Below, piece by piece: positions 2,443 to 55,605 of a stretch of 56,361 bases of DNA. How positions within the stretch are numbered: position 1 is the first letter of the stretch; the number at the start of each line of letters is the position of its first letter. The notes under the pieces were generated by a model. The model was not told the DNA's origin and searched no databases. It saw only the letters and a program-made list of their open reading frames with translations. The translations under genes and the position numbers were made by a program. Location of the stretch: positions 1 through 56,361 of the forward strand of contig JAKPCG010000083.1 of assembly GCA_029553365.1 (NCBI GenBank). Direction: 5' to 3'. The DNA is from Acidobacteriota bacterium (GTDB taxonomy: Bacteria; Acidobacteriota; Aminicenantia; Aminicenantales; Saccharicenantaceae).

Positions 2443-2471
2443 TTGATTCATTTTTTTGGATTTACTATAAT
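2443..2471 (+). promoter_or_regulatory. Sigma-70 promoter for the sensor kinase gene
   Basis: TTGATT (2443-2448), a 17-base spacer and a perfect TATAAT (2466-2471) predict a transcription start near 2478. That is only about nine bases before the ATG at 2487, with no clear ribosome binding site in between. The mRNA would be nearly leaderless. Confidence 0.65.
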
Positions 2472-2486
2472 TAAATCAGCGGGTTT

Positions 2487-5336
2487 ATGAAAAGACCACT
2501 TGGTTTTTATCTCGTTCTGTTCAGCGTTATATTCCTGACCATTCTCGGTTTTATCAATATTTCCCGTAAGCTAGCCTGGAAAGAACCGTATGACGGGGTT
2601 GTCTGGGTCGAGGGGCCTGGTGGTCTGATTGCTCGAAAAGTAGCTGAAAACAGCCCAGCTTATCTCTCAGGTATCAAGCCTGGCGATATATTATTTTCTA
2701 TAAACAATACTCCGATCAAAAACAAGATTGAGTATGTCAAAATGCTCTGGGTTCTGGACCGCCTGGAGCAAAAGGCCCTCTATCAGGTAGGAAGAGAAGG
2801 AACTATACTGGCACCTTCTTTTTATTTAGAAAAAAAGGGAGTCAGTTCAACTTACGTTTACCTGATGCTTCTGGGCTTAACCACCCTGGCCATCTCCCTG
2901 ATTGTTTTTATTAATTCGAGAAGGCGATTTTCCAGTCCCTATCTATTTTTTTATCTGGTTTTGTTGTCTCTTTATTCAGTTTACGTTTTTTCACCAACCG
3001 GTCAAATGGACTGGCTTGATCAAATATTTTTCTGGTTGGACAAAGTAGCTATTATAGCCTTTCCCCCTCTGCTCTTAAATTTCTTTTTTATCTTCCCTCA
3101 GAAAAAAAGAATACTGGACCATCCCAGGCTATTAGCACTGCTTTATCTGCCAGGCCTTTTTTTACTTCTATCCAATATTGGCTTGATGACCATTTTCCAG
3201 GCGAAATTAGGCGATGCTGAGATCCTGAAATACCAGGGAATCCTGGAAAAGGGTGAATTAGTCCAGCTGGCTGTTTACAGTCTGCTCGCTTTTTTCATTA
3301 TAATCTATGATGTAGTCGTCACCAGAAATCTTTATATCAAAAACCAGCTCAAGTGGATTGCTGGTGGCCTGGGCTTGGGAGTATTGCCTTTTTCTATCTT
3401 TTATATCATCCCTTTTTTCCGAAATTCGCTGCCCTCAACCAGCGGTCAACTGAGTGTTCTTTTCCAGATCTTTCTCCCGGTCACTCTGGCCTATTCGATT
3501 TCGCGCTATCGGTTAATGGACTTTGAGGTCCTGGTTAAAAAAGGTCTGACTCTCATAATTTCATTTACTCTGATTGCCCTGGTTTATTTCCTGGTCAGCT
3601 CTCAAACCCAGCTATTCTCAGAAAACAGACTTAATGCTATTTTGCTTGGTTTGCTGGCCATCATCCTGGGGGCAACGCTGTTTACGCCATTGTTAGAGAT
3701 GGTGCAGACCCTGGTTGACCGGGTCATCTACCGGCGGAGTTATGAATACCGGCGAACCCTGCTGCTTATTTCCAGCCAGCTCAACCGGGAAAGAGATCTC
3801 CATCGTCTGGCCAGTTACCTGGTGGAAACTATCTCGAAAGCCCTCTCTCTCAAAAGTCTGGGGCTCTTCCTGGCCCGTGAAGAACAACCTGACGAGTTTT
3901 ATCTTCTTCGTTCTGCCGGCGAATTTCATCTGACCACACCGGTGGTCAAGCTCAGTTCAACCGAGAAGCAGGAGCTGCAAAAAGCAGAGTTTATATCATT
4001 TTTGCCCGGGAGTGAATCTTCTTCGTCCTCGAGAATTTTTATTTCCCTTCAGGAAGAAGGATTTAATAGTATCTTGCCGCTTAAACTGGAAAACAGAATA
4101 CTGGGTTTTCTGGCTCTCGGGGACAAGATCGATGGCTCCTACCTTTCGGGCGAAGACCGTGAACTTTTGCGAACCATTTCTCCTTCGGTCACTTTAGCTC
4201 TGGAAAATGCCTATCTTTATAACCAGGAGATTATTCGCTCACAGGAATTACAACGCCTTAAAGATTACAGTGATAATATTATCGAGAGCCTGACCGTCGG
4301 GGTGGCAGTCATTGATGAGAGCGGACTTGTCACCGGCTGGAACCGGGTCCTGGAACAGCAATTTGGCCTTAGTCGAGCCCAGGCTTTAAACCGACACCTC
4401 TCCGAGGTCATCGGCTTCGAAAACTTCCGGGCTATATTTCCACCGGATACGCAGTCTGAATATCAGTTGCTAAGCGAAATTTCCCTGACCACCAGCCAGG
4501 GAGAAAAAAGAATTTTTGACGTGGCCAGAACTCCTCTGCTGGACAACCATCTTCAACCTTACGGAACAATTATTGTTTTTGAAGATATAACAGAGAGAAT
4601 AAGACTCCAGCAGCAAATGGTAACTTCGGAAAAGCTGGCTTCGATCGGGTTGCTGTCAGCCGGAGTAGCTCATGAGATAAATACGCCCCTGACTGGAATT
4701 TCCAGCTATGTTCAAATGTTGCAGAAAAAGCTGACCGAGGCTAATTATCTCCAGGTTCTTAAAAAAATAGAAGACCAAACCGAGCGGGTAAGTAAAATAG
4801 TTAAAAATCTGTTGAGTTTTGCCCGCAATCCAGCCGATCCTGCTTTTCACCGGGTTGACCTCAAAGAGAGCCTGGAAGAGATTATTTCTCTGATTGACTA
4901 CCGGCTGAAAAGCTTGAATATTAATCTTGTTCTGGACCTCAAGCCCGTGACCATTTATGCTCAGAAGGAAAGGCTACAGCAAGTTTTTATTAATATTATC
5001 CTCAATGCCCTGGATGCTATGCCTGGCGGAGGTCAGCTATCCATTCAGACCAGGCAGCAGGACAATCAGGCCATTGTCAAAATATCCGATACCGGTCTGG
5101 GAATTAAGCCTGAACACCTGCCCAGGATTTTCGACCCATTTTTTACCACTAAGGGAATCGGTAAAGGCACCGGTCTGGGGCTTTCGATTAGCTTTGCTAT
5201 TATTAAGGAGCATGAGGGACAGATCCTGGTCGACAGTCAGGTCGGCCAGGGGACGACCTTCACTATTATTTTACCGGTCAATCTGGCTGAAAAAGATTTA
5301 AAGCAGTCACGCCGGGGAGGAATTGATCATGAATGA
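2487..5336 (+). CDS. Membrane sensor histidine kinase with PDZ, multi-TM, GAF and PAS domains
   Basis: The 949-residue protein begins with a signal-anchor helix. A periplasmic PDZ-like domain follows (about 30-110, with ENSPAYLSGIKPGDILFSIN), then a cluster of about seven hydrophobic helices (115-410), a GAF-type domain (about 430-580) and a PAS domain (about 595-710, ending GTIIVFEDITERIRL). The kinase core comes last: HisKA with phosphoacceptor His729 in GVAHEINTPL, and an HATPase with N (NIILNALDAM), G1 (SDTGLGI) and G2 (GKGTGLGLSI) boxes. This is the domain order of NtrB/AtoS-like kinases, with an unusual PDZ sensor. The gene overlaps the downstream activator gene by eight bases, so the two form a two-component pair. 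A PDZ suggests sensing of exposed C-termini or misfolded envelope proteins, which is inference. Confidence 0.92.
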   Translation: MKRPLGFYLVLFSVIFLTILGFINISRKLAWKEPYDGVVWVEGPGGLIARKVAENSPAYLSGIKPGDILFSINNTPIKNKIEYVKMLWVLDRLEQKALYQVGREGTILAPSFYLEKKGVSSTYVYLMLLGLTTLAISLIVFINSRRRFSSPYLFFYLVLLSLYSVYVFSPTGQMDWLDQIFFWLDKVAIIAFPPLLLNFFFIFPQKKRILDHPRLLALLYLPGLFLLLSNIGLMTIFQAKLGDAEILKYQGILEKGELVQLAVYSLLAFFIIIYDVVVTRNLYIKNQLKWIAGGLGLGVLPFSIFYIIPFFRNSLPSTSGQLSVLFQIFLPVTLAYSISRYRLMDFEVLVKKGLTLIISFTLIALVYFLVSSQTQLFSENRLNAILLGLLAIILGATLFTPLLEMVQTLVDRVIYRRSYEYRRTLLLISSQLNRERDLHRLASYLVETISKALSLKSLGLFLAREEQPDEFYLLRSAGEFHLTTPVVKLSSTEKQELQKAEFISFLPGSESSSSSRIFISLQEEGFNSILPLKLENRILGFLALGDKIDGSYLSGEDRELLRTISPSVTLALENAYLYNQEIIRSQELQRLKDYSDNIIESLTVGVAVIDESGLVTGWNRVLEQQFGLSRAQALNRHLSEVIGFENFRAIFPPDTQSEYQLLSEISLTTSQGEKRIFDVARTPLLDNHLQPYGTIIVFEDITERIRLQQQMVTSEKLASIGLLSAGVAHEINTPLTGISSYVQMLQKKLTEANYLQVLKKIEDQTERVSKIVKNLLSFARNPADPAFHRVDLKESLEEIISLIDYRLKSLNINLVLDLKPVTIYAQKERLQQVFINIILNALDAMPGGGQLSIQTRQQDNQAIVKISDTGLGIKPEHLPRIFDPFFTTKGIGKGTGLGLSISFAIIKEHEGQILVDSQVGQGTTFTIILPVNLAEKDLKQSRRGGIDHE

Positions 5337-6714
5337 AAACAACAAGATTATGATTCATCTGATTGATGATGAACCAATAATCCATGATGTTCTAGGGCAG
5401 CTTTTGCAATCTGAAGGTTATCAAGTTGAAGTCTCTACTTCCGGAGAAGAAGCCCTGTCCAAGCTGCCTCACCAGAAATTTGATTTAACCCTGCTTGACC
5501 TGTTGATGCCCGGGATGGATGGGTTGGAAGTCTTAAGGGAGATAAAAAGACTTGAGCCCGAAGCAGTGGTGATTATTATTACCGCCTATGCTTCAGTTGA
5601 GTCCGCTCTGACCGCTATGAAGATGGGTGCTTATGACTATATTCAAAAGCCATTTAAAAATGATGAACTACTGATGACCATTTCCCGGGCACTCGAGCAC
5701 CGCCGCCTGCAGCTCGAAAATATCAGACTGCAAGACGAACTTAAAAGAAAATTCAGCTTTGATAATATTATCGGCAAAAGTCAACCGATGCAGAATGTTT
5801 TTGAACTGATCAAAGCGGCTGCTCCCACCCGCTCAACCTTGCTGGTCCAGGGCGAAAGTGGCACAGGCAAAGAACTGGTGGCCAGAGCCATCCATAGTAA
5901 TTCCGATCGGGCCAACCATCCTTTTGTGGTAGTCAATAGCGGTTCACTACCACCTGATCTGCTGGAAAGCCATCTTTTCGGTCATGTGAAAGGAGCTTTC
6001 ACCGGTGCTGTGGCTGACAAAAAGGGCCTGTTTGAAGCTGCCGATAAGGGTACCATCTTCTTTGATGAAATTTCTTCGATCAGCCTGGAAACTCAAGTCA
6101 AGCTGCTACGGGTTATGCAGGACAGAGAATTTATGCGGCTCGGTGGGACCAAGACTATTAAAGTTGATGTCAGAATCATTGCCGCCACCAATACTGATCT
6201 GGAAGAATTAATCGAACAAAAAGCCTTTCGCAAGGATCTTTATTACCGGCTGAACGTCATCAAGATCGAACTGCCACCACTTAGAGCCAGAAAAGAAGAT
6301 ATTCCCCTTCTGGTCAGACATTTCATTGATCTTTACAACAAAGAAAACAAAAAAGAAATTGAAGGCGTGAGTGAGGAGGTAATGGAAATTCTGATGGATT
6401 ATGATTGGCCGGGCAATGTCCGTGAGCTGGAAAATGTGCTGGAAAGGGCAGTGGTTCTAAGCCGGTCAAAGATCATTACCCGGGAAGCTCTGCCCGCCTT
6501 CCTAACTGAGAGTCGTCCCCGGGCCTACCTGGAAATTGGTGAGGATAATCTGAATTTAAAACAAAAGACACTCGACTTTCAGAAAAGGCTTATTTTAACT
6601 GCTTTGAAAAAATCGAGCGGCGTCCAGAAGCAGGCGGCGGCCATGCTGGGTTTAAAACCAACCACTTTGAATGAAATGATCAAACGCCTCAAAATTGATG
6701 TAGACTCAATTTAA
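5329..6714 (+). CDS. NtrC-family sigma-54-dependent response regulator
   Basis: This 461-residue protein has a receiver domain (1-120, phosphoacceptor Asp57, Thr85, Lys107). A sigma-54 activator AAA+ domain follows, with Walker A GESGTGKE at about 175-182 and an intact GAFTGA loop at 222-227, then a Fis-type HTH near 415-461 (QAAAMLGLKPTTLNEMIKRL). The ATG at 5329 is chosen over an in-frame TTG at 5323 because GGGGAGG lies eight bases before the ATG. The start overlaps the kinase stop, so translation is probably coupled. Phosphorylated regulators of this class bind enhancers and open sigma-54 promoters. Three such promoters are seen at 23.6, 29.1 and 33.7 kb, but whether they are its targets is unknown. 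Confidence 0.95.
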   Translation: MNENNKIMIHLIDDEPIIHDVLGQLLQSEGYQVEVSTSGEEALSKLPHQKFDLTLLDLLMPGMDGLEVLREIKRLEPEAVVIIITAYASVESALTAMKMGAYDYIQKPFKNDELLMTISRALEHRRLQLENIRLQDELKRKFSFDNIIGKSQPMQNVFELIKAAAPTRSTLLVQGESGTGKELVARAIHSNSDRANHPFVVVNSGSLPPDLLESHLFGHVKGAFTGAVADKKGLFEAADKGTIFFDEISSISLETQVKLLRVMQDREFMRLGGTKTIKVDVRIIAATNTDLEELIEQKAFRKDLYYRLNVIKIELPPLRARKEDIPLLVRHFIDLYNKENKKEIEGVSEEVMEILMDYDWPGNVRELENVLERAVVLSRSKIITREALPAFLTESRPRAYLEIGEDNLNLKQKTLDFQKRLILTALKKSSGVQKQAAAMLGLKPTTLNEMIKRLKIDVDSI

Positions 6715-6732: not shown

Positions 6733-9324
6733 TTAGTTTATTTCGATTTTGCCTGGAACCTGATGGCCAGGATTAATATCCAGCCTCTTTAGCTTCCCTG
6801 GAAACTCGAGATGAAAGACCTGCTCCGGATTTTGCACAATTAGATTTTCAACAAAGCTACCACGGTCTGTTTCAACCACTATTTTTAGAGGGAAAAAGAG
6901 CGGTTTTTTAATCTGCCGAACCTCTAGCTCCAGCTCGATTTGATCCGGCTTGACGGTGATTTTTTTCTTGATTTTGACTTCCGGCAAAACTTCCGAGTAG
7001 AACCAGTCTTGAAAAAATTGCTTCAGATCAAGACCGGAAATCTTTTCTAAAGAACGTTGAAAGCCGACCGTCCTGGCCGGTCTGAAGAGATTACTCTGGT
7101 AAAAACTTTTCAAGCCCTTAAAAAAGACATCCTCTCCCAGCAAATCTTTAAGCATAAATAGAGCCAGAGCTGCTTTATCATAAACAACTGCCTGATAACC
7201 TTCGAAATCAAGGTGGCTTAATCTCAGGCCAAGAATAACCGGACCGAGGTCTGATTTTTTTCTAACCCATCTTGATATTCTGTTCTGAATCTCTTCCAGT
7301 TCTTTTTGCCCATACTTTTTCTGGAGATAAAGAACGGCTGAAAACTGTGATAGCCCTTCCGTCAGCCAGTTATCGCGGTAAGTAGCATAACTAAGGCCAT
7401 GACCCCACCATTGATGAGCAATTTCGTGAGCCAGAAAGTAACCAGACCAGAAAGACAGATCAACCGGATTATCGGGCTTTATCCTTAAAGGAGGAATGCC
7501 ATCCGCGCTCGGACGTTCATTAAGGACGATATAACCTGGTGGGGAGACTCCACCTTCTGTCGGCCAGAATCTTTGCACAATGGCCAGCTGATCATAGGGA
7601 TAGTCTCCAAAGAGACTCTCATAATATTCGATAATTTTTCCAGCCTCGGCCAGTTGGCTAGTATCATCAATTAGCCTACCCCTGGAAACAAATAATTCAA
7701 GCTTTACCTTTCCGGATATTTTAGGCCCGGGTCTGAGTTGTCCAACCAAAAAGCTAACATATTTTACCGGTTTTTTGCTCTCATATTTATATAAATACTT
7801 CCCGGGTCTATTCTGCTCTGGAATCCTGACCTCGTTACTGATTGGCTCCTTAGCTACCAGCTGACCACTGGCCAGTCCATAATAATTGTCCGGAACAAAT
7901 AATTTCAGGCTGAAGGTAAAATATTTTTCAGAAGTTGGGGCCGGATACCATTCCGAGGATTGGGTGAACAGATAACTATCATAAAGCAAGCTATCCCTGG
8001 CATAAAAGTCAGGCCGAAGTTGAAAATCAAGAACATCAGTCAGAGGCGGTGGCGGCACAATCCTGCCTTCATACAAAATTTTGATACTGACAGCCTGCCC
8101 CTGGTGGGCTTCTTCCGCCAGGTAAATATAGAGAAGCTTCCTCAGACGGTCACGACTGTAGAAAAGCTGCCTGTTTCGATCGTCGAGGATCTGCCTGACT
8201 TGAAGGTCTGGATTGAGCCTGAACTGGACTCCATCCAGCTCCTCCATGAGCGGTAAACAGTCTATTTCTGCCCAGCCTGCCATCCAGTTATTATCAGGAT
8301 TATAGCTGACTTCGAGCTGGTAATTTTCAATTTCATATTTTTCCTCAAACCTGACATACATCATTTTGAGGTCAGGAGCCTGGCTTGAGGGAGAATAGCT
8401 GCTCAAAAGCAGGCCCCTCTTTCGATCCAGAAAAACAACTTCCTCCTGGGCAAAAGGAGAGTAGATATAGGTAAATTCGTCTTTCCGTCCGGCCTGCATC
8501 TCTATTACTGTTTCACCTGACTGTGGTAAGAAAGTCAGCAATTCTCCCGTTATGGAGTTTTCGACAGTAAAGGACCTGGGATAATTTCGGGCAAAGATGG
8601 AAGCTACCAGTCGTTCATCATTTTGCCGGGCCGCTGCCGGCTGCTTCCCGGCGTAAATCTCATATTTTAAATTATCATTAAAAAAACCGGGTGTACCTCG
8701 AACATAAATCGCAGAAAGCTTTTTTTCCCAGTAGGGCTTTTTAAATCTTCTACGGAGCTGGTTTCTTTCAATCTCATCAGATGGACGAAAGACAGCTCGG
8801 CCTTCACCGATAATGATCAGGGCGGTATTGGTTTCCGGTAGGTTATCCATAAAAACATGAGCCTGGCTGAAGGTAATAATTAGATCCTGTTTGGTCAAAC
8901 TGAGGTTTCTGGCTAAAAAGTCACTCTTGCCCGGAAAGCGAAGGCGATACAGTTGTGAAATGCTGCCGCTGACAGTCTTATCAATAATAACCAGGCCGGA
9001 GGGCCTGAGCTCATAGGTAATCTGCCAGATTTCAATACTGGCAGAGTACTGGTTTTGAAAAAGAACCTGGAAAAAAGCTCTATTTCGGCCCGAGCTATCC
9101 TGACTTTGCCCGGCAGGGCGGACATGGACAGAATCGAAACCAGAGGCCCCGAAATATTCAGCTAAATTCTCCCTCTCTTTAACTCGCAGTTCTGGACTGT
9201 ATAAATTTAAGTAGTCTTCAAATTGCTGATTTTCAAGGTAGGTTTTTAAAGCTAAAAGGTAGGAGGGAAACTCCGCCTGGACCGGCCAGGAACTCAGTTG
9301 AAGGAGTAAAATCAGACCGGACAA
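6733..9324 (-). CDS. Secreted M1-family zinc aminopeptidase, start uncertain
   Basis: The 863-residue reading frame contains the gluzincin motif HEIAHQWWGH (His633, Glu634, His637) and the third zinc ligand Glu656 in WLTEGLSQF, spaced HEXXH-x18-E as in family M1. The usual GxMEN exopeptidase loop is replaced by TEGGVSPPGY about 50 residues upstream, so substrate specificity may differ from classical aminopeptidase N. The first 15-20 residues are hydrophobic and end VQA, like the end of a signal peptide without a basic n-region. Annotated from the TTG at 9324; the true start is probably the GTG at 9359, out of frame by one base (see the separate entry). The end converges on the response regulator gene 18 bp away. 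Its likely role is trimming peptides outside the cytoplasmic membrane. Confidence 0.87.
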   Translation of the reverse strand: MSGLILLLQLSSWPVQAEFPSYLLALKTYLENQQFEDYLNLYSPELRVKERENLAEYFGASGFDSVHVRPAGQSQDSSGRNRAFFQVLFQNQYSASIEIWQITYELRPSGLVIIDKTVSGSISQLYRLRFPGKSDFLARNLSLTKQDLIITFSQAHVFMDNLPETNTALIIIGEGRAVFRPSDEIERNQLRRRFKKPYWEKKLSAIYVRGTPGFFNDNLKYEIYAGKQPAAARQNDERLVASIFARNYPRSFTVENSITGELLTFLPQSGETVIEMQAGRKDEFTYIYSPFAQEEVVFLDRKRGLLLSSYSPSSQAPDLKMMYVRFEEKYEIENYQLEVSYNPDNNWMAGWAEIDCLPLMEELDGVQFRLNPDLQVRQILDDRNRQLFYSRDRLRKLLYIYLAEEAHQGQAVSIKILYEGRIVPPPPLTDVLDFQLRPDFYARDSLLYDSYLFTQSSEWYPAPTSEKYFTFSLKLFVPDNYYGLASGQLVAKEPISNEVRIPEQNRPGKYLYKYESKKPVKYVSFLVGQLRPGPKISGKVKLELFVSRGRLIDDTSQLAEAGKIIEYYESLFGDYPYDQLAIVQRFWPTEGGVSPPGYIVLNERPSADGIPPLRIKPDNPVDLSFWSGYFLAHEIAHQWWGHGLSYATYRDNWLTEGLSQFSAVLYLQKKYGQKELEEIQNRISRWVRKKSDLGPVILGLRLSHLDFEGYQAVVYDKAALALFMLKDLLGEDVFFKGLKSFYQSNLFRPARTVGFQRSLEKISGLDLKQFFQDWFYSEVLPEVKIKKKITVKPDQIELELEVRQIKKPLFFPLKIVVETDRGSFVENLIVQNPEQVFHLEFPGKLKRLDINPGHQVPGKIEIN

Positions 9325-9392: not shown

Positions 9393-9581
9393 GGCGAAGA
9401 GTTTCCTGTTGCTCACCTGGACTGGAGCAATTTTTGTGCCAGCCAGCCGGGGGGCTGGCCAATCATCGAAAATAAGTAAAAGCAGGTCAGGAAAGGAGAT
9501 ATTTTTATCAAGAAGGTAAGCAAGCTTATTCAAATAAATGGCAATAGTTTCCAGAATCTTTACAAACAGCAAAAAATTTAT

Positions 9582-23591: not shown

Positions 23592-23607
23592 TGGCATAGT
23601 TCTTGCT
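23592..23607 (+). promoter_or_regulatory. Sigma-54 (-24/-12) promoter of the four-Cys secreted protein
   Basis: TGGCAT-AGTTC-TTGCT has the invariant GG (23593-23594) and GC (23605-23606) exactly 12 bases apart. It fits the consensus TGGCAYRNNNNTTGCW at every defined position. The predicted start is near 23618, directly before GAAAGGAG and the ATG at 23634. No sigma-70 promoter of similar quality is seen in the 290-bp A/T-rich gap upstream (23341-23633), which otherwise holds a 10-bp palindrome GAATTAATTC near 23528 and no gene. Confidence 0.78.
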
Positions 23608-23633: not shown

Positions 23634-23858
23634 ATGAAAAAACTCACTTCTCTGACACTGTCACTAATTTTTATCCTGTCTATTTTCTTGTTTTTGCCTC
23701 AAGCTTCACACGCTAGAATTCCAGCTGACCAATGCTGGGATAACTGGGAAAGATGCCGGGCCAGGGCCTTCCAGTCTGACCTGGAAACTGCCAGGACGAC
23801 AATGGCTCTGACCTCCTGTGATCTTGGTCTGGGTAGATGCTTAATCTTGGGTAAGTAA
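23634..23858 (+). CDS. Small secreted four-cysteine protein, paralogue of the one at 33705
   Basis: This 74-residue protein is of a family I do not recognise. A signal peptide (KK start, hydrophobic core 7-22, cleavage after SHA at 27) leaves a mature chain of 47 residues. Cysteines 34, 41, 62 and 69 form a symmetric CX6C-X20-CX6C pattern, which could staple a helical hairpin by two disulfides. The core C-x-A-R-x4-D-L-x4-T-x2-A-x3-C is shared with the protein at 33705-33950. The ATG at 23634 is preferred over 23628 because AAAGGAG sits six bases upstream. It is driven by a sigma-54 promoter and followed by a strong hairpin before the propeller-like gene. Function unknown; a secreted peptide, signal or structural factor are all possible. 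Confidence 0.78.
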   Translation: MKKLTSLTLSLIFILSIFLFLPQASHARIPADQCWDNWERCRARAFQSDLETARTTMALTSCDLGLGRCLILGK

Positions 23859-25734: not shown

Positions 25735-27675
25735 ATGCTTGCCTCTAAAAAGTTTCCTAAATTTTTATTGACCTGTCTCATTTTCGTCCTATCAATTTCG
25801 CTGGTGACTGCTATCTCTTTTGCTCAGGAAAATACAGACCAGGAAAAGAAGAAGGAAAAAGAAGAGAAGCCGGTCAGAGTAAAAACAGAAGAAATTATGG
25901 TCACGGCCAGCGCTCCTCAGGAAAAACCTCTGGCCACTGTGTCTACCATCGAACCGCAGACCATTCAGCTGCTTAAAACCAAAAATATCTCTGAGGTTCT
26001 GTCTTTTGTCCCCGGGACCCATGTCACCGTTGGGGCTAAGTCAGAATCCCACATCAAGATAAGAGGGCTCGATAATGACAAATCAACGCTCTTACTTGAT
26101 GGTATACCAGTCTATGAACCCTATTATAATATGTATGATCTAAAGACCATTCCCAGTGAGGATATCGATACCATCCAGGTCACCAAGGGTTCCTCTTCTA
26201 TTCTTTACGGGGCAAATACTATGGGCGGAATAGTGGAAGTTTTAACTCGCCGGCCGGAAAAGACCAGTCTGGAGCTTAACTCCCGTTTCAGCCAGAATTC
26301 TACCTTCGATTTCTCCGGCACAGGCACTTTTTATAGTCCAAAATTTGCCTTTAAGTTATCAGCTCTTCATAACGAATCGCAGGGTTATAAATACCGCCAA
26401 TCTGATACGGATATTCTTCTTCCCAATTCCGACTATAAAAACGACTTTTTTAACGGCAAATTTTATTTTTACCCAACCCAGAAAAGTGAAATACTATTAC
26501 AGGCTTCTTATTATGATTCTTCCTATGGTATTCCGCCTGCGACCGCATATTATTCTCCTCGCTACTGGCGCTTTAAAGACTGGGAAAGAACTGTGCTGGG
26601 TCTGGGCGGAACTTTTCCTCTGTTTAAGACCGGAACAATCAAGATAAGAACCTATTATGTAAAATTTTATAATGTTCTTGATGCTTATACTAATTCCTCT
26701 ATGACTACTCTCGACTGGGAATCTATCTATGATAACTATGAGACTGGAGCCTTCATCTTAGGGGCGATACCTCTGGCCAAAAACAACGATTTGCGCTTCA
26801 GTTTGAATGGTCGCTATGAACATGTTGAACAGCAAGGTTCAGCCACTTCCCCCTGGGAATTATACAAGCATCATGTTTATTCAGCAGGAATTGAGGATGA
26901 GTGGCGGCTCACTCCCAGATGGAGTCTAATTGGCGGACTGAGCTTTGATTATTTAAAAAAGCAGGGAGGTAAAGAAAGTAGTTCCGTTAACCCCATCGCC
27001 GGTTTAAAATTTAAAGTCACTAATGAGGCCAATCTCCATTTCTCTTTCTCCCGCAAATCACGTTTCCCCTCAATGCGTTCACTATACAGTACAACCAGCG
27101 GCAACCCCGATCTTAAAGACGAAGTGGGTACGTCTTTCGAGCTCGGAGCTGATTATTCTGGCTGGTTAAACGGCAGTTTGACCGGTTTTACTTCAGATTA
27201 TAAAGACCTGATTTATGTTATTCGCCAGCCCAATGGAACAAAATTATATATTAATGTCGGCGAGGCCCGGATTAGAGGTCTGGAAGCCTATGTCTCCAAA
27301 AGCCTGAAGAATTTTAATTTCCAGGTTAATTATACTTACCTGGATGCTAAAAACCTGACTGATGATCGACCTCTTGATCTTGTTCCTGAGTCTGAAGCCA
27401 GTTTTCTGGCCAGTTACCTCCTGCCAGAAAACTTTAGTCTAACCCTCTGGGTATTAATGACTTCCAGGTCAGAAATTTTGATCAGCTCAAATTCAGTTTC
27501 CGTTCCCGGCTATACAGTAGCCAACCTGTCCTTTGAGAAATATTTAAGAGGCGGATCACTGTTTTTTAGAGTAGAAAACCTGTTTAATAAAGCTTATTAC
27601 ACAGAGCCCGGTTATCCCTGCGCTTGTCGCCGGCTGGAAGCAGGATTTACATTCAGGGTTGGCCCAGCAGACTGA
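25735..27675 (+). CDS. TonB-dependent outer-membrane receptor (siderophore/cofactor/metal type)
   Basis: The 646-residue protein has a signal peptide (cleavage near ISFAQ at about 30) and a charged linker. A TonB box-like EEIMVTASAP follows (about 53), then a plug domain (about 65-170, including SHIKIRGLDNDKSTLLLDGIPVYE cut short here, and QVTKGSSSILYGANTMGGIVEV) and a 22-strand barrel region. The late motif SRKSRFPSMRSLYS with NPDLKDEVGTSFELG is typical of FepA/BtuB-like receptors. The C-terminus does not end in the usual aromatic residue. It sits behind a structured leader and 26 bp ahead of a sulfite-oxidase-fold protein, so its substrate may be a metal or cofactor. The substrate is not shown by sequence. 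Confidence 0.93.
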   Translation: MLASKKFPKFLLTCLIFVLSISLVTAISFAQENTDQEKKKEKEEKPVRVKTEEIMVTASAPQEKPLATVSTIEPQTIQLLKTKNISEVLSFVPGTHVTVGAKSESHIKIRGLDNDKSTLLLDGIPVYEPYYNMYDLKTIPSEDIDTIQVTKGSSSILYGANTMGGIVEVLTRRPEKTSLELNSRFSQNSTFDFSGTGTFYSPKFAFKLSALHNESQGYKYRQSDTDILLPNSDYKNDFFNGKFYFYPTQKSEILLQASYYDSSYGIPPATAYYSPRYWRFKDWERTVLGLGGTFPLFKTGTIKIRTYYVKFYNVLDAYTNSSMTTLDWESIYDNYETGAFILGAIPLAKNNDLRFSLNGRYEHVEQQGSATSPWELYKHHVYSAGIEDEWRLTPRWSLIGGLSFDYLKKQGGKESSSVNPIAGLKFKVTNEANLHFSFSRKSRFPSMRSLYSTTSGNPDLKDEVGTSFELGADYSGWLNGSLTGFTSDYKDLIYVIRQPNGTKLYINVGEARIRGLEAYVSKSLKNFNFQVNYTYLDAKNLTDDRPLDLVPESEASFLASYLLPENFSLTLWVLMTSRSEILISSNSVSVPGYTVANLSFEKYLRGGSLFFRVENLFNKAYYTEPGYPCACRRLEAGFTFRVGPAD

Positions 27676-27701: not shown

Positions 27702-28742
27702 ATGAAAAAACATCACATTAAGATATCTGTCCTGATTGTTCTGACCCTTATAGGGCTTGGCCTGTCCTGGCCAGCAGCTGCTCAAAATATAAAACCGGCC
27801 GAGAATAACGATTTCTATGATAATGTACCATTCAAAGAACTACCGTTCGATAGTATTGAAATCGCGGGTGAAGTAACTTCTCCTGGCAGATTGAGCTTGA
27901 AAGGCCTGCCTCTGCACCAGGTTATGGTTCGCGAAGCCGTTTTAAATGGTACTGAGACAAAGTTTATTGGTGCCTATGTGTACCAGGGTTATTCCCTGTT
28001 TGATATCCTCAAGGATCAAATCCTGGCCAAAAAAAATAAAGACCAGTTCAGCTCGCCCATTGATTTGATGGTCATAGTGGAAAATAAAAAGGGTGAGCAG
28101 GTAATTTTTAGCTGGGGTGAAATATTTTATCCGACGGTTCTTCATCGCCAGATAATTGGAGTGAAAGTAGCTCCGATTATACCCTCATCCACTGGCGAGA
28201 CCTGGCCACTCCCGACCAACCCCAAAATTGTGGCGGCTAACGACCTTTTTTCTGAGCGCAACCTGGATAGCCCGGTTAAAATCACCGTCAAATCTTTTCC
28301 TCTGGCGATGGCCACAGAAAAAGGCAAAAAACCTTTGTTTTCTCCTCAGATAAAGATTTACATCAAAGGCGAAGAAAAAGGCAGCCTGGACAAATTGCCT
28401 CAGGATACTCTGATTTTAAATCTACCGGCCGTCTTTTTTGGGCGCGGTCAGGGCTTTCACGGAGTCAATTATTTTCAAGGGGTACCCCTGCGATTAGTGC
28501 TTGAAAAATACCTTGGCTCTCAGCCTATAAATTATAGAACCGCTCATCTGGTTATAATCGGAGATGACGGCTATCGGGCAGTCTATACAGCTTCGGAAAT
28601 ATTTAACAGAAATGATAACCAGGAAACTATTATTTGCGATCGAGGCCAGCAGAATGGAGGACGTTTTTCTCTTTTCTCGATAGGTGATTTTTTCTCTGAC
28701 CGGGCCGTTAAAGCTATTAAAGAAATCAGATTCATCGAGTAA
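27702..28742 (+). CDS. Exported protein with two sulfite-oxidase-like (molybdopterin-binding fold) repeats
   Basis: The 346-residue protein has a signal peptide ending near AAAQ (28). Two similar units follow: one around 50-150 (IAGEVTSPGRLSLKGLP, then GYSLFDILKDQI, then VIVENKKGEQVIFSWGEIF) and one around 220-320 (IYIKGEEKGSLDKLP, then GVPLRLVLEKYL, then VIIGDDGYRAVYTASEIF). This is the pattern of the Mo-binding domain of sulfite-oxidase-like proteins, here duplicated and with no evident cofactor-ligating Cys; the only Cys is at about 315 (IICDRGQ). It is co-oriented with the TonB receptor, with AGGAGG at the start. It may bind the receptor's substrate in the periplasm rather than act as an enzyme, which is inference. 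Confidence 0.72.
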   Translation: MKKHHIKISVLIVLTLIGLGLSWPAAAQNIKPAENNDFYDNVPFKELPFDSIEIAGEVTSPGRLSLKGLPLHQVMVREAVLNGTETKFIGAYVYQGYSLFDILKDQILAKKNKDQFSSPIDLMVIVENKKGEQVIFSWGEIFYPTVLHRQIIGVKVAPIIPSSTGETWPLPTNPKIVAANDLFSERNLDSPVKITVKSFPLAMATEKGKKPLFSPQIKIYIKGEEKGSLDKLPQDTLILNLPAVFFGRGQGFHGVNYFQGVPLRLVLEKYLGSQPINYRTAHLVIIGDDGYRAVYTASEIFNRNDNQETIICDRGQQNGGRFSLFSIGDFFSDRAVKAIKEIRFIE

Positions 28743-29080
28743 ACCTGATCTGGACGAAATGGGCTCCTGAGATTAATACTCATTAATACTTTGATACTTT
28801 ATGCTAATTCCTGATTTCTATCTTTCCGAGTCTATTAAGGGCTGGCCCAGACAGGACCGGCAGAGCTGGAATGCTCGAGAGCCAAAATCAAAGGATGGGC
28901 AGTTTTGGGCATAATTGTTCAATCTGTTGGATTGTAAATTGCCATATTTTGTAATTTATTGATATTACATAATTTATATAATCCAAATTTCTGCATCATT
29001 ATCCAAATAATAAACAAAAAATTTAAGACTATTTGCTTATAAGCTATTGATATATAAGAAGATAGGTTTTTGGGCTAAGA
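28743..29080 (+). other. A/T-rich regulatory gap with a candidate enhancer site
   Basis: No gene is seen in this stretch, and 28920-29070 is strongly A/T-rich. It contains an inverted repeat TGTAAT-N8-ATTACA at 28950-28969. That repeat lies about 112-131 bp upstream of a perfect sigma-54 promoter, the usual distance for an activator binding site. The rest shows no further structure that I can support. Confidence 0.5.
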
Positions 29081-29096
29081 TGGCACATAATTTGCA
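29081..29096 (+). promoter_or_regulatory. Sigma-54 (-24/-12) promoter of the Oar-like receptor
   Basis: TGGCAC-ATAAT-TTGCA is a perfect match to the -24/-12 consensus, with the GG (29082-29083) and GC (29094-29095) elements 12 bases apart. The start should lie near 29107. The leader to the receptor TTG at 29272 is about 165 bases, holds a hairpin GCCCC-TAGATAA-GGGGC (29111-29127) and a short reading frame with a near-perfect ribosome binding site. Confidence 0.82.
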
Positions 29097-29181
29097 TGTA
29101 GCACCTGCGAGCCCCTAGATAAGGGGCAAATTACCGGATGCGCTTTATTAAAAACCATTTTATTTTGGAAAAAAGGAGGTG

Positions 29182-29238
29182 ATGGATCAAAGGGGGTTAA
29201 TAATATATCCAATAACTGTAATGGGCTTTAGGGTTTAG
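29182..29238 (+). CDS. Possible 18-codon leader peptide upstream of the Oar-like receptor
   Basis: The ATG at 29182 follows AAAAGGAGGTG, an almost perfect complement to the 16S 3' end. It opens a frame encoding MDQRGLIIYPITVMGFRV with a TAG stop at 29236-29238, about 33 bases before the receptor start. The strength of the ribosome binding site is unusual for a chance ORF. It could be a regulatory upstream frame or simply a spurious site in the leader. Confidence 0.4.
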   Translation: MDQRGLIIYPITVMGFRV

Positions 29239-29271
29239 GGCTTAATAAGAATTAACCAAAAGGAGGAAAAA

Positions 29272-32178
29272 TTGGCAAAAAGAGTTTTAGTGGGGGTAAT
29301 CAGCCTAGTTTTCCTTTTCTGCGGCTTGCTGGTCGCCCAAGTTGTGCAGACCGGGAACCTGGAAGGAACGGTCCGGACAGCTGACGGCGAGCCTTTACCA
29401 GGGGTAACAGTTACGATTACCTCTCCAGCTTTGATCATCGGCAAACAGGCTACTGTGACGAATCAACGGGGTGCTTTCCGGTTTATGGCCTTGCCACCTG
29501 GCACTTACGAGGTGAGGTTCGAACTGGAAGGTTTTCAGCCGGTTATTCAGAAAGATGTGGTTATCAGGGTAGCTCAGACTATAACCGTTGATATCACCAT
29601 GAAGCCAAAAACCATGGAAGAACAGGTAACTGTAGTAGCTGCAGCTCCAAACATTGATAAGCAGAAAACAACTCGTCCAACTAACCTGGATGTGATATAT
29701 CTGAGCAGTTTGCCTGCCACACGTAACCTCGGTACATTCTTTAACATGACTCCAGGTGTCACCGGCGATACAGCACATGGGAGTTCAACCATGGACAATA
29801 CTTATAACCTGGACGGTATTAACATGGTCGATCCAGCTACTGGTGTTCCTAATGTCAACTTCGGTATGGACATTATGGAAGAAATCTCTGTACAGGCCGG
29901 TGGTTTACCAGCCGAATATGGCAGCGTCCGTGGAGCCGTGGTCAACGTGGTCAGCAAGTCCGGTGGAAATAAATTTAGCGGCACGGCCGAATTTTTCCTG
30001 GATCATGAGAAACTAAAGTCTGATAACACCAAGGGGACTCCATTTGAAGGAAGCAAGAGTGGTGCTAAGTATCAAATAGAGCCTGTGGTGACACTGGGTG
30101 GACCCATTGTCAAGGAAAAAGCCTGGTTTTTCACGAACCTTAGCTTTCAGCAAAATGAAAACTTCGTGGCTGGTTATCCTTATGGGGTCGAACCGGGAAA
30201 GGAAAAGCCAGTTAAGACAACGTTACCTTATCCTTTCATTAAATTGAGCTTCCAGCCCAACCAGGAAAATAAATTTTCTTTAACCTATAACTATTCTGAC
30301 CGAAGAACCAACGATAGAGGAGCCAGTCTCTACTATACTGAAGAAGCAACGATTAAACAGACAACACCAACTCATGTCTTAAGTGTTCAGTGGACGAGAG
30401 CTTTTGGTTCAAATCTCTTTACCAACGTCAGATTTGGCATGGTTCTTTTTACCATGAATCTACATGCCAAAAACGATCAGCCAACCTTTGATGATTACGG
30501 ATTACCTCTTGAAAAAATCTGGGGCGGTTACTGGCGAAATAAAGACGACTATACCAGAAATCGGTATCAATTTAATGCTGACGCGACCTATTTCCTTGAT
30601 GATTTTCTGGGAAGCCACGAAATAAAAGGCGGCTTTGAAACTCAGATTGCAAAAACTACCTGGTACGTTTATGGCGTCGGTGATTGGACAAGCGATAACG
30701 GGCTGGAGATCGGCTGCTATTATGACATTAACAATGGAGCCTACGAGGACTGCCTGGTTCTGGTGAATAATGGTTTCAATCGTAAAGACAATATGATTGA
30801 CATCCATGGGTTTCTCCAGGATACCTGGTCAGTCAACAGGCATTTGAATATCAGCCTTGGCGCGAGGTTGGAGTATAACAGTATTGTCTATCCCAAGCAG
30901 AATACAGAAGAAGGTCCCATTACTTTTCAGGGCAAAACTTATGACCGAAGTATTCCCGAGAACACCAAAATGTATAGCTGGCTTAATCTGGCTCCACGCC
31001 TGGGCATCATCTATGATATTCTTGGTGACGGCAAGAATGTTTTCAAAGCCAGTTGGGGCCGCTATATTCTTCCCAACCAAATTGGCTGGATTAACTTAGC
31101 TCATCCTAATGGCTGGTTCGGTTACATCCAGCTTCTCAACCCTGATGGCAGCATTATGTATGATGAAAACGGCAACCCCATGACTATTCCCTGGGCTATG
31201 CCCGGCGGATTCAAGAATGGCGGTGCAGTCATCGGCTATACTGATGCTCAGGGCAAGGAATACAAGCTTAAAGCCGGTTATACTGACGAATTGACAGTTG
31301 CTTTTGAGCGAGAGCTGGCTAAGGACTGGACATTAGCCCTTAGATACATTAAAAAGTGGGACAGAAGACAACCATATATTGTTGATGCCGCTCAACTTGA
31401 CCTGGATAAACTGATGACCAAGGGCGAGCTTGATTGGTCAAAGAACTGGACACCAGTTACCTGTATTGACCCCTATAACAAGAAGCCAATAGTTTTCTAT
31501 GAAAAACAGAACCTTATGGCTCAAGACCTTCACATTATTAATCCTCCAGGGGCTAACAGAGATTATGATGGCTTTGAAGTTTCTGTTGATAAGAGATTTT
31601 CTAAGAATTATTCGATGAATATTTCTTACGTCTGGGCTAAGTCGAGGGGTCTAATCACCACGGCCAGAAATAGTGAATCGCTGGGTGGAGGCGCAGGTTA
31701 CTTTTATTCTGATCCTAACGCCCATACTAATGCCTATGGGAGATTCCCCCTGGAAAGAAGGAATCAGCTGAAGGTTACGGGCGTGGTACGGCTGCCTTTC
31801 GACATAACCCTGAGTGGCTATTTCCGAGCTCTATCTGGAACCAGAACAACCAGAACAATCAATACTACTTATAGAAATATCTATATTCAGGGCACGACGA
31901 CTGCCTTTAGACCCAGACAGGGCAATGTTGGCGTTTACGCTGACCAGAGAGGTTCATGGGGTCTTCCCGACCAATGGCTGCTTGACCTCCATCTGGAAAA
32001 AACAGTTAGAATTAAAGGGACCTACTTCAGCGTCTTTGCTGACTGCTTCAATGTTTTTAATGAAATGATTATCACCGGCATGTATATGGTTTCCAACAAT
32101 CCCAATACTCCTTTCATGCGGCAGACCGGAATCAATGATCCGAGAATTTTCCGTTTAGGCGCCAGGTTCGGGTTCTAA
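29272..32178 (+). CDS. Oar-like TonB-dependent receptor with N-terminal carboxypeptidase-regulatory domain
   Basis: The 968-residue protein starts at a TTG with AAAAGGAGG seven bases upstream. It has a signal peptide (1-23), a CarboxypepD_reg-like domain (about 26-110, GNLEGTVRTADGEPLPGVTVTI cut short here), a TonB box-like EEQVTVVAAAP (about 117), a plug domain (125-235, STMDNTYNLDGINMVDP, EEISVQAGGLPAEYGSVRGA) and a large barrel. It ends in Phe (ARFGF), as expected of outer-membrane barrels. Oar-type receptors import or export large substrates such as proteins or peptides in Myxococcus and relatives. The gene has its own sigma-54 promoter and a strong terminator, so it is a single-gene unit lying between the two small secreted proteins that also have sigma-54 promoters. 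Confidence 0.93.
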   Translation: MAKRVLVGVISLVFLFCGLLVAQVVQTGNLEGTVRTADGEPLPGVTVTITSPALIIGKQATVTNQRGAFRFMALPPGTYEVRFELEGFQPVIQKDVVIRVAQTITVDITMKPKTMEEQVTVVAAAPNIDKQKTTRPTNLDVIYLSSLPATRNLGTFFNMTPGVTGDTAHGSSTMDNTYNLDGINMVDPATGVPNVNFGMDIMEEISVQAGGLPAEYGSVRGAVVNVVSKSGGNKFSGTAEFFLDHEKLKSDNTKGTPFEGSKSGAKYQIEPVVTLGGPIVKEKAWFFTNLSFQQNENFVAGYPYGVEPGKEKPVKTTLPYPFIKLSFQPNQENKFSLTYNYSDRRTNDRGASLYYTEEATIKQTTPTHVLSVQWTRAFGSNLFTNVRFGMVLFTMNLHAKNDQPTFDDYGLPLEKIWGGYWRNKDDYTRNRYQFNADATYFLDDFLGSHEIKGGFETQIAKTTWYVYGVGDWTSDNGLEIGCYYDINNGAYEDCLVLVNNGFNRKDNMIDIHGFLQDTWSVNRHLNISLGARLEYNSIVYPKQNTEEGPITFQGKTYDRSIPENTKMYSWLNLAPRLGIIYDILGDGKNVFKASWGRYILPNQIGWINLAHPNGWFGYIQLLNPDGSIMYDENGNPMTIPWAMPGGFKNGGAVIGYTDAQGKEYKLKAGYTDELTVAFERELAKDWTLALRYIKKWDRRQPYIVDAAQLDLDKLMTKGELDWSKNWTPVTCIDPYNKKPIVFYEKQNLMAQDLHIINPPGANRDYDGFEVSVDKRFSKNYSMNISYVWAKSRGLITTARNSESLGGGAGYFYSDPNAHTNAYGRFPLERRNQLKVTGVVRLPFDITLSGYFRALSGTRTTRTINTTYRNIYIQGTTTAFRPRQGNVGVYADQRGSWGLPDQWLLDLHLEKTVRIKGTYFSVFADCFNVFNEMIITGMYMVSNNPNTPFMRQTGINDPRIFRLGARFGF

Positions 32179-32193: not shown

Positions 32194-32228
32194 AAAGGGA
32201 GCCATGGTGATCATGGCTCCCTTTTTTT
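32194..32228 (+). terminator. Strong intrinsic terminator of the Oar-like receptor gene
   Basis: AAAGGGAGCCATG (32194-32206), loop GTGAT, and CATGGCTCCCTTT form a 13-base stem followed by a T-tract. It lies about 16 bp after the stop codon. Confidence 0.9.
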
Positions 32229-32389
32229 ATGTCAGCTGATTGTCCTCCTGATAATTTCCTGCGGCTGGCCGCTACCTGTCGGCTGTTATAAAAAGGAAAA
32301 TTTTTTGAAAATAGGCTATAATAGTTATGTCAATAGCAAATTATAAGGCTATGATTTTAGGTAAATCTGGATAGACAGTGAGGGAATCA

Positions 32390-33370
32390 ATGAAAAGGGT
32401 TTTAGCCGTTTTTTTAACACTGATCATGGTAGCCTTGTTTCTGCCTATTGAGGTCAGGAGCCAGGAAGGCCGTGGACAGGGACGCCTTTCGGGAATAGTC
32501 GTCGATGAGGCAGATCAGCCAATTAGCGAGGCTAAGATCAAGATTCAGTATATCGAATACACTTATCAGCTGGAAGCTGTTTCCAACAATAAGGGGCAAT
32601 GGTCTGTTTTTGGATTAGGCAAAGGGAATGTCAATATCACCGTCGAAAAGGAAGGGTTTGCCCCCGCCAGCCTGCAAATTCCGGTCAGCGGTCTCAATAA
32701 GAATCCAGTTTTAAAGATTGTCTTAAAGAAGGGCTCAGCGGACCTATCAGGAACGGGCGAGTCTATTGATAGTCTTAAGCCAATTTTAGCCCAGGCCAAT
32801 GAACTTTTTGATCAGGGCCAGTATCAATCGGCACTGGCTCTTTATCAAGAGTTGATGAAAAAAGATCCCAGATTATATATGCTGAAGCTAAATACCGGCA
32901 ATTGCTACATAGAGCTAAAAGAATATGACCAGGCTGTTACTGAGTATCTAAAGTTGCTGGATGAGATTAATGCCCAACCACCGGAAAAGAGAGACAACAA
33001 GTTAATTGCCCAGGTCTATGCGGCTATAGGCGATTGCTATTTGAGGCAGGATAAACTTGATGAAGCGGAAAGTTATTTTTTAAAATCCGTGGAGATAGAT
33101 CAATCAGACCCAGCTATTCCTTTTAATATTGCCGAAATAATGATGAATGCCGGAAAAACAGATGAAGCCATCAAATACTATGAACTCTCTATCAAGGCCG
33201 ACCCCAGCCGGCCGAAAACCTATATGAAATTAGGTTACGCCTGGATTAACAAGGGTGATACTAAGAAGGCAATAGAATGCTTTAATAAAGTGGTCGAGCT
33301 GGCTCCAGCTGATGATCCTGATGCCACCCTGGCCAGGGAACTGATCAAACACCTCTCCGAAATTAAGTGA
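32390..33370 (+). CDS. Exported protein with carboxypeptidase-regulatory domain and TPR repeats
   Basis: The 326-residue protein starts at the ATG at 32390 (GAGGG upstream), not the GTG at 32378. It has a signal peptide (cleavage near VRSQ at about 24) and a beta-sandwich CarboxypepD_reg-like domain (about 30-105, RLSGIVVDEADQPISEAKI, VSVEKEGFAPASLQI-like). About five TPR units follow between 125 and 326: for example LFDQGQYQSALALYQELMKKDP, AIGDCYLRQDKLDEAESYFLK, LGYAWINKGDTKKAIECFNK. The fold is a protein-protein adaptor in the periplasm. The same beta-sandwich type occurs at the N-terminus of the adjacent Oar-like receptor, so the two may work on the same substrate. No enzyme motif is seen. 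Confidence 0.85.
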   Translation: MKRVLAVFLTLIMVALFLPIEVRSQEGRGQGRLSGIVVDEADQPISEAKIKIQYIEYTYQLEAVSNNKGQWSVFGLGKGNVNITVEKEGFAPASLQIPVSGLNKNPVLKIVLKKGSADLSGTGESIDSLKPILAQANELFDQGQYQSALALYQELMKKDPRLYMLKLNTGNCYIELKEYDQAVTEYLKLLDEINAQPPEKRDNKLIAQVYAAIGDCYLRQDKLDEAESYFLKSVEIDQSDPAIPFNIAEIMMNAGKTDEAIKYYELSIKADPSRPKTYMKLGYAWINKGDTKKAIECFNKVVELAPADDPDATLARELIKHLSEIK

Positions 33371-33661: not shown

Positions 33662-33677
33662 AGGCATGAAAATTGCA
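33662..33677 (+). promoter_or_regulatory. Sigma-54 (-24/-12) promoter of the second small secreted protein
   Basis: AGGCAT-GAAAA-TTGCA has GG (33663-33664) and GC (33675-33676) exactly 12 bases apart. It matches the consensus except A for T at the first base. The predicted start is near 33688, directly before AAAGGAG (33691-33697) and the ATG at 33705, the same arrangement as at 23592. Confidence 0.68.
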
Positions 33678-33704: not shown

Positions 33705-33950
33705 ATGTCTGCGAGAAAAGGTGTGGTCACTTTACTTTTATTAATCCTGACTGTTTATATTTTCTTATTTGATCCAGCGCCAGGAGAAGCCAGTGCTCCC
33801 CTTGAACCCTATCGCCGTATTCTCGAGATATGTATTGCTCGAACTCTTACCGCTGACCTGAACATAATCGCAACGGCCGTAGCCATCGAGGCCTGTTCAG
33901 CTCTTTATGAAGCTCTGTATCTCCTGAATTCTGCCTACCCGTGGACCTAA
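33705..33950 (+). CDS. Small secreted two-cysteine protein, paralogue of the one at 23634
   Basis: The 81-residue protein has a signal peptide (K5, hydrophobic core 7-22, likely cleavage after GEA at 29) and a mature helical chain. Cys43 and Cys64 are 20 residues apart. From Cys43 the pattern C-x-A-R-x4-D-L-x4-T-x2-A-x3-C is the same as in the protein at 23634. The outer cysteines of that protein correspond here to Tyr36 and Leu71, so the two are lost together, as expected if they form one disulfide. It has its own sigma-54 promoter and AAAGGAG, and ends 13 bp before a convergent gene. I do not know the family or function. Confidence 0.72.
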   Translation: MSARKGVVTLLLLILTVYIFLFDPAPGEASAPLEPYRRILEICIARTLTADLNIIATAVAIEACSALYEALYLLNSAYPWT

Positions 33951-54243: not shown

Positions 54244-55605
54244 TCAATTTTTCGGCTGGTCCAGCCCGTGTTTTTTTAACAGGCGGAAAAGTCCCTGTCT
54301 GGTCAAGCCAATGGCGGCGGCAGTTCTGGCCCGGTGATAATTAAAATGGCGCAGAGCTTCACCCAGGAATTTCTTTTCAAATTCAGCTTTGGCCTGGGAG
54401 TAATCCCAGCGATCAGTTAGAACTTTGTCTCTGGCGTTTTTAATGGGCGTCGACAGATAGTCAGCCTGGATGATTTTTTCACCGCCAGAAAGAATCAGAT
54501 TGCGCTGAATTTCGTTTTGAAGCTCCCGGACATTGCCCGGCCAATCATATTTAAGCAAAAGCTCGAGCGCCTCCGGTGTATAAAAAGCACGAGGCCTGTT
54601 CATTTCCCTGGCATAAAAGTCGAGAAAATGATTGACCAGAACAAGAATGTCTTCTGGCCGGCGCCGTAAAGGTGGAATGTCAATGGCCATGATCTTCAAG
54701 CGATAGTAAAGATCCTGCCGGAAGCGGCCGGTGCTGACTTCTGCCTCCAACTGGCGATTGGTAGCACTGATAAAACGGACATCTATCCGTCGGGAACGAT
54801 TTTCGCCGAGACGCCTCAACTCTTTCTCCTGAAGAACTCTTAAAAGCTTAGCCTGAAGGGGCAAGCTCAGATCACCAACCTCATCCAGAAAAAAGGTTCC
54901 ACCGTTGGCTTCCTCAATCAACCCGGGTTTATCCCGAAGGGCGCCGGTAAAGGAGCCACGAGCGTAACCAAAAAGTTCTGATTCAAGAAGGCTGTCAGGG
55001 ATGGCGCTGCAGTTGATGGCTACAAACTCGCCTCGCTGGCGGTGGCCGGTCTGGTGGATTAATCTGGCGACGAGTTCTTTGCCGGTTCCACTTTCCCCGC
55101 TGATGAGAACCGGTGAGTCGATATCTTTGACCTTATTGATGAGCTCCCGGATAAGCCTCGCCGCCTGACTGATACCGAGAAATTCGAGCTGCCCTTCATC
55201 ATTTTCAACCGGAAGCTGGTGAGGTAGAGCGGCTTCCTGGCTGAGAAGCTTGACCGCCGGCAGGGCGGAAGAGAGAATTTCCATCTCTTCTTGAGGTGAG
55301 GAATTGCCTTTATTGGGTTTTTCAAAGTAGGCGTAACCATACACTTTTCCCTGGAAAAAATAGGGGTGGCAGGCAACAAGAATATCCTGCCCATGATCCA
55401 GGTGGCTGACGACCGGCTGGCCGGATTTTAAAGCCCGGTTGATAAGATCCGACCTGTCTTTTTCGGAAACTGCTGGCTCCCTACCTTTTGACTGACTGAA
55501 GAAGGGCTGCTGCCGATAATCAAAAGCCACCAGTTCAAAACAATCAGCCTGAATAGCCTCAATAATGACCTCGAAGATCTTTGACATGATTTCGGGCGGT
55601 GACAT
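54244..55605 (-). CDS. Sigma-54-dependent transcriptional activator with GAF-like sensor domain and GSFTGA loop
   Basis: The 453-residue protein has an N-terminal GAF-like sensory domain (about 1-125), a sigma-54 activator AAA+ domain (about 140-375) with Walker A GESGTGKE at 170-177, and a Fis-type HTH at the end (AAAIGLTRQGLFRLLKKHGL). It lacks a receiver domain, so it probably responds to a ligand. The GAFTGA loop reads GSFTGA (217-222); that Ser is a variant position, tolerated in some activators as I recall. It may activate some of the sigma-54 promoters at 23.6, 29.1 and 33.7 kb. That link is inference. Confidence 0.93.
   Translation of the reverse strand: MSPPEIMSKIFEVIIEAIQADCFELVAFDYRQQPFFSQSKGREPAVSEKDRSDLINRALKSGQPVVSHLDHGQDILVACHPYFFQGKVYGYAYFEKPNKGNSSPQEEMEILSSALPAVKLLSQEAALPHQLPVENDEGQLEFLGISQAARLIRELINKVKDIDSPVLISGESGTGKELVARLIHQTGHRQRGEFVAINCSAIPDSLLESELFGYARGSFTGALRDKPGLIEEANGGTFFLDEVGDLSLPLQAKLLRVLQEKELRRLGENRSRRIDVRFISATNRQLEAEVSTGRFRQDLYYRLKIMAIDIPPLRRRPEDILVLVNHFLDFYAREMNRPRAFYTPEALELLLKYDWPGNVRELQNEIQRNLILSGGEKIIQADYLSTPIKNARDKVLTDRWDYSQAKAEFEKKFLGEALRHFNYHRARTAAAIGLTRQGLFRLLKKHGLDQPKN

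Follow-up and report, generated by a model that had tools for sequence, protein, structure and literature searches.

Genomic context of the Oar-type receptor gene

The window, i.e., the whole stretch of DNA that was analyzed, comprised 56,361 nt of an Aminicenantia genome assembly of 1.79 Mb (236 contigs; 74.5% complete). It contained a gene for a 968 aa Oar-type TonB-dependent outer-membrane transporter (29272..32178, + strand) with a TTG start codon preceded by the ribosome-binding site AAGGAGG (29260..29266, +). Pfam matches identified a CarboxypepD_reg N-terminal extension (PF13620, 7e-20) and an OMP_b-brl_4 barrel (PF25183, 2.8e-46), and the best matches of the predicted fold were TonB-dependent transporters (E 2e-21), from a modest model (pLDDT 63). 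The Pfam Plug model (PF07715) had no match in the receptor, the plug region of the structure model being mostly below pLDDT 50, and a TonB-box-like EEQVTVVA was spotted by eye. A sequence search for a solved close relative returned none beyond a short domain. An intrinsic-terminator-like hairpin with a T run (32197..32228, +) suggested that the receptor is probably its own single-gene transcript. It was followed by a gene coding for a secreted TPR protein with a CarboxypepD_reg domain (32378..33370, +) that is a recurrent neighbor of sigma-54 receptors.

The first-pass annotation had placed the receptor between two peptide genes, and this arrangement was confirmed, both genes being small and signal-peptide-bearing. 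The first encodes a small exported four-cysteine peptide (23634..23858, +; cysteines in C-x6-C and CD-x5-C) and had its own sigma-54 site, TGGCATAGTTCTTGCT (23592-23607). The second, divergent peptide gene (33705..33950, +) was preceded by a weaker -24/-12 site, AGGCATGAAAATTGCA (33662-33677). Both peptides belonged to one family of small exported proteins for which no Pfam or NCBIfam match was found, and were predicted to form helical hairpins with no significant PDB match to the predicted fold. Upstream of the receptor, a Moco (molybdenum/tungsten) riboswitch (RF01055, 25626-25743, 70.5 bits) was situated directly before another TonB-dependent receptor gene (25735-27675) that is apparently under Mo/W-cofactor control. 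The product of the gene after it (27702-28742) appeared molybdopterin-binding-like by eye, with no Pfam match.

Sigma-54 promoter of the receptor gene

The -24 GG and -12 GC elements at standard spacing (TGGCAC-N5-TTGCW) were found with zero mismatches at 29081..29096 (+; TGGCAC-N5-TTGCA), confirming the perfect sigma-54 promoter reported in the first-pass annotation. The predicted transcription start was at ~29107 and the TTG start codon lay 175 nt downstream of the promoter. Two perfect -24/-12 sites were present in the window, where six sites with at most one mismatch were found vs. 1.9 expected. The genome contained six perfect TGGCAC-N5-TTGCA sites, two of them intragenic, vs. none with the reversed pattern, and TGGCAYN5TTGCW occurred at 170 sites in 10 genomes of the order vs. 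11 when reversed. The probability that a site such as 29081-29096 occurs by chance in the 450 nt upstream of a gene was ~1e-4. The genome also encoded rpoN (PF04552, 1.2e-59) with an intact RpoN box (ARRTVAKYR). As judged from its sequence, 29081-29096 is a real sigma-54 promoter of the receptor gene.

Other sigma-54 sites were associated with further exported proteins. The second perfect site of the window (9426-9441, -) preceded a gene for a secreted M1-peptidase-like protein (6733-9324, -), a pairing also identified in G017 (L159) and G018 (L164). Sigma-54 sites in relatives were located before type IV pilin and minor-pilin-like genes (L123, L143, L151, L195; L118, L150, L168, L169) and before an outer-membrane-protein-like gene (L122, L148, L156, L175, L202). 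The total per genome was ~13-21 sites, including those of pilins and other exported proteins.

Sigma-54 use in the receptor family across the Aminicenantia

Oar-type receptor matches were identified in all 60 genomes, most of which had several. Within the 450 nt upstream of 67 receptors picked by protein similarity alone, a site with at most one mismatch was found for 23 and with two mismatches for two, while the rest were chance-like; the mismatch distribution was two-peaked and the reversed control gave 0/67. On a FastTree tree of the receptors, the sigma-54 label changed 12 times vs. 29 times for shuffled labels, indicating that sigma-54 control is clustered on the tree yet was gained or lost several times. 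The closest receptors to that of the window were in G054, G058, and G049 (59-62% identity). The receptors of G058 and G054 (59-61%) had TGGCACATATATTGCA as their upstream site and that of G049 had no -24/-12 site upstream of the start chosen. The site was kept before orthologous receptors in G054, G058, G017, and G018 and before many paralogues, and this conservation supports the sigma-54 control of an Oar-type receptor that had been suggested from the window alone.

Palindromes upstream of the sigma-54 receptors

The first-pass annotation had also proposed TGTAAT-N8-ATTACA as an enhancer. The palindrome was indeed present at 28950..28969, but it was rejected as an enhancer for want of conservation: before all 44 other sigma-54 receptors the pattern had at least three mismatches, with no match within two. 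An FNR-type site was rejected as well since the half-sites point the opposite way. Dyad counting upstream of sigma-54 sites identified a different motif, ATTCAA/ATCCAA-N4-TTGAAT/TTGGAT (ATYCAA-N4-TTGRAT), which, when up to one mismatch was allowed, preceded 42/45 receptors with a sigma-54 site (0.3 expected after shuffling) and 0/46 receptors without one. Among the sigma-54 promoters of seven genomes, the operator was found at 24/24 receptors and 0/68 others (Fisher p ~1e-22), a count in which L160 and L163, binned by the script as "other," were counted as receptors and which is not fully independent, as the motif was derived from part of the same promoter set. The genome-wide palindrome test and the kinase-operon test described below were independent of the motif discovery set. 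In eight genomes, 36 exact palindromes were present vs. none in the reversed control, and by our count 27 were before Oar-type receptors, four before the kinase operon, and five without assignment. The operator mostly began 65-135 bp before the -24 element and was duplicated or triplicated at 18 sigma-54 receptors, at a spacing of 14-32 bp. Its distribution identifies ATYCAA-N4-TTGRAT, rather than TGTAAT-N8-ATTACA, as the predicted conserved upstream element of the sigma-54 receptors, and an estimated third to half of the Oar-type receptor genes carry both the sigma-54 promoter and the operator.

Two candidate upstream activating sites preceded the receptor in the window. The first, GTTCAATCTGTTGGAT (28917..28932), had one mismatch to ATYCAA-N4-TTGRAT and began 164 bp before the -24 element; a match of at most one mismatch is expected within 220 nt by chance at ~0.01. 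The second and weaker, ATCCAAATTTCTGCAT (28981..28996), had two mismatches and began 100 bp before the -24 element, near the commonest distance among relatives. Both copies were thus imperfect, with the better one at the outer limit of the distances usually seen.

Two further palindromes were observed at other sigma-54 promoters. In front of the gene for a conserved exported protein (..PQKKDQKKEQK..; L131, L137, L166, L192), TGTAAA-N5-TTTACA lay 65-68 bp upstream of the sigma-54 site and is probably the site of a second activator. TGTCCTG-N4-CAGGACA, found in an exported protein family (..YSYARLSYVQGDVRV..; L121, L139) at ~66 bp before the sigma-54 site, is probably that of a third.

A kinase-regulator operon as candidate controller

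A further operator, ATTCATTTTTTTGGAT (2446..2461; one mismatch to ATYCAA-N4-TTGRAT), was present before a gene coding for a membrane histidine kinase (2487..5336, +) with an N-terminal PDZ domain followed by PAS, HisKA (H729), and HATPase domains, the putative sensor. The adjoining gene (5323..6714, +) encodes an NtrC/AtoC-type response regulator with receiver (PF00072), sigma-54 activator (PF00158), and Fis-type HTH (PF02954) domains, the putative receptor activator. GAFTGA at residue 224 and a Walker A motif were present, such that no motif required for activating sigma-54 is missing from the predicted protein, and the recognition helix of its HTH (KPTTLNEMIKRL) was unchanged across the six orthologues compared. 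Another sigma-54 activator gene in the window (54244-55605, -) lacked both a receiver domain and an exact GAFTGA.

Kinase orthologues were identified in 59/60 genomes of the order, and similarity searches with the kinase returned almost only records of Candidatus Aminicenantes, Candidatus Saccharicenans, and Acidobacteriota, which places the window in the Aminicenantia near Ca. Saccharicenans. With at most one mismatch, the palindrome preceded the kinase gene in 27/30 orthologues (vs. 0.04 expected; the exceptions were G005, G019, and G048) and before 62 of 71 named Aminicenantes kinase loci (54 exact); the two sets partly overlap and their sites had not been used to find the motif. In every family examined, no regulator operon other than the kinase operon was found to have the palindrome. 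The operator at 2446-2461 filled the spacer between TTGATT (2443-2448) and TATAAT (2466-2471), 17 nt apart, and this placement inside a sigma-70 promoter, seen in the window and in close relatives, predicts negative autoregulation of the operon. No such sigma-70 promoter was evident around the operator in the kinase operons of more distant relatives. From the self-association of regulator and palindrome and their co-conservation, we infer that the regulator binds the palindrome and that the pair activates a family of Oar-type TonB-dependent receptors in the Aminicenantia and also regulates itself, probably by repression.

Receptor mRNA leader and orphan Shine-Dalgarno sequence

The mRNA leaders of the receptors were predicted to be ~100-200 nt. 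In the window, an orphan full-length Shine-Dalgarno sequence, AAGGAGGTGAT, was located at 29173..29183 (+), 99 nt before the true receptor start. Matches of at least 9 nt to the anti-Shine-Dalgarno were present in 31 of 45 sigma-54 receptor leaders and also in some other receptors, and these were 9-13 nt long and 74-126 nt before the true start. The anti-Shine-Dalgarno itself (GGATCACCTCCTT) was found in G000 and G009 only, probably because most assemblies are without rRNA genes. A leader peptide behind the upstream Shine-Dalgarno was considered because an 18-codon open reading frame begins at 29182 in the window (ATG at 2 nt), but it was rejected since only four of the 31 leaders, the window included, had a start codon there. 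The leader had no Rfam match or known RNA element and its fold was unremarkable (z = 0.73).

Orphan Shine-Dalgarno sequences termed STAB-SD act as 5' stabilizers in Bacillus mRNA leaders through RNase J. The receptor leaders are likewise long and carry a Shine-Dalgarno without a start codon. However, RNase J (TIGR00649) was not found above the cut-off in the 10 genomes searched and exceeded it in 9/14 control genomes, and a Bacillus-type STAB-SD was rejected on this basis. The orphan Shine-Dalgarno may instead be a standby site or protect the mRNA by another route.

Proposed regulon and alternative explanations

The promoter noted in the first-pass annotation is real and probably part of a different system from the one suggested there, namely a sigma-54 regulon of Oar-type receptors that spans the class and is probably under two-component control. 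In the proposed model, to which we assign a probability of roughly three in four, the PDZ-domain histidine kinase and NtrC/AtoC-type regulator (2487-6714) would act through ATYCAA-N4-TTGRAT palindromes. When phosphorylated, the regulator would bind mostly 65-135 bp upstream of the -24/-12 element and activate sigma-54 RNA polymerase at between about a third and a half of the Oar-type receptor genes, that of the window among them. At the palindrome of its own operon promoter the pair would be autoregulated, probably by repression, while the nearby peptide genes would use sigma-54 and not the kinase-regulator switch.

The palindrome might alternatively be bound by another sigma-54 activator or an unrelated factor, with the kinase-regulator pair as a target rather than the controller. 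Several other sigma-54 activators were present in each genome, and an operator lying between the -35 and -10 elements, as at the kinase gene of the window and close relatives, is where any repressor would act. Nevertheless, we consider this explanation unlikely as the palindromes are mostly in the typical position of enhancers before the -24/-12 sites and almost nowhere else, and as no regulator operon other than that of the kinase was found with one. Binding to their own promoters is also common among NtrC-type regulators.

Much less support remained for a regulon in which one sigma-54 activator co-expresses peptides and receptor through TGTAAT-N8-ATTACA and the receptor binds, imports, or exports the peptides, as the first-pass annotation had envisaged. 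Sigma-54 use is shared, the genes are close together in the window, and the peptide promoters are strongly conserved: 25/30 homologues had an exact TGGCAYN5TTGCW, and a site with at most one mismatch began 41-42 nt before the peptide ATG in 25/30. The family was identified in 38/142 genomes of the class, with NHL-repeat and AhpC/TSA genes adjoining the peptides in all ten regions compared. However, within two mismatches TGTAAT-N8-ATTACA was confined to the window receptor among the 45 with sigma-54 sites, and the receptor operator ATYCAA-N4-TTGRAT was absent from the peptide promoters, such that different activators for peptides and receptor are likely. The nearest receptors (G054, G058, and G049) were in genomes without a peptide homologue, many peptide-bearing genomes had no close receptor homologue, and G017 and G007 displayed the same neighborhood with no Oar or TPR genes between the peptides. 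The comparison indicates that the receptor is an insertion between the peptide genes in the lineage of the window only. Co-occurrence and synteny hence led to rejection of the peptide-receptor pairing, and together with the missing operator they left a single regulon, now very unlikely, unsupported; the peptides and receptor appear to share a sigma factor and, in this lineage, an address, but not a switch. The least probable explanation was a chance or idle -24/-12 match, with a sigma-70 promoter driving the receptor gene instead, as sigma-70-like sequences are easily found in the AT-rich upstream region, but the site is perfect, hardly expected by chance, kept in ~60%-identical orthologues of another family, and its -24/-12 element is coupled to the operator in all but three of the 45 cases.

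With regard to the signal of the kinase-regulator pair, a speculative extension that we regard as unlikely is that the predicted periplasmic PDZ domain of the kinase reads the state of the outer membrane, e.g., the free C-terminus of a barrel that has not been assembled, such as ...RLGARFGF of the receptor, and that the kinase sets transcription for much of the TonB-dependent receptor repertoire via sigma-54, with the orphan Shine-Dalgarno as a second, leader-encoded layer of control. If true, this would amount to a counterpart of the DegS/sigma-E feedback loop built on a two-component system and sigma-54.

A class-wide two-component/sigma-54 switch with a 16-bp operator would provide a first handle on the control of outer-membrane uptake proteins in an abundant uncultured class, and the regulon could be read from any metagenome-assembled genome. 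Once receptor and peptides are no longer paired, the strongly conserved sigma-54 peptide family stands apart and calls for its own explanation.

Comparison with known systems

As far as the open-access literature shows, neither the operator, nor the assignment of its regulator, nor the leader element has been described before. No match of ATYCAA-N4-TTGRAT to a described operator was found, and searches of the open-access literature returned no paper combining Aminicenantes and sigma-54 and nothing on a PDZ domain with histidine kinase, NtrC, and Acidobacteria. In other lineages, TonB-dependent receptors usually each answer to a regulator of their own, be it an ECF sigma factor, a Fur-like repressor, or a dedicated sugar sensor.

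Sigma-54 has been described as a controller of the bacterial exterior (Francke et al., 2011; PMC3162934), consistent with the sigma-54 sites found here before receptors, pilins, outer-membrane proteins, and peptides; the text of that study mentions neither TonB nor Acidobacteria, and a 2025 survey (PMC12316311) mentions TonB for Flavobacteriia only. The Oar protein of Myxococcus xanthus is a TonB-dependent transporter needed for PopC secretion (PMC6434023), and the receptors analyzed here share its CarboxypepD_reg N-terminal extension and TonB-dependent transporter barrel but differ in forming a large paralogous family and in the lack of a Pfam Plug match. Similar to NtrC/AtoC/ZraR-type systems, the predicted regulator has a receiver-AAA(GAFTGA)-Fis HTH architecture and adjoins its kinase, and palindromes are located ~100 bp upstream of the -24/-12 sites with one more at its own operon. 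The differences from these systems are that the putative targets are an outer-membrane receptor family and that the kinase carries an N-terminal PDZ domain.
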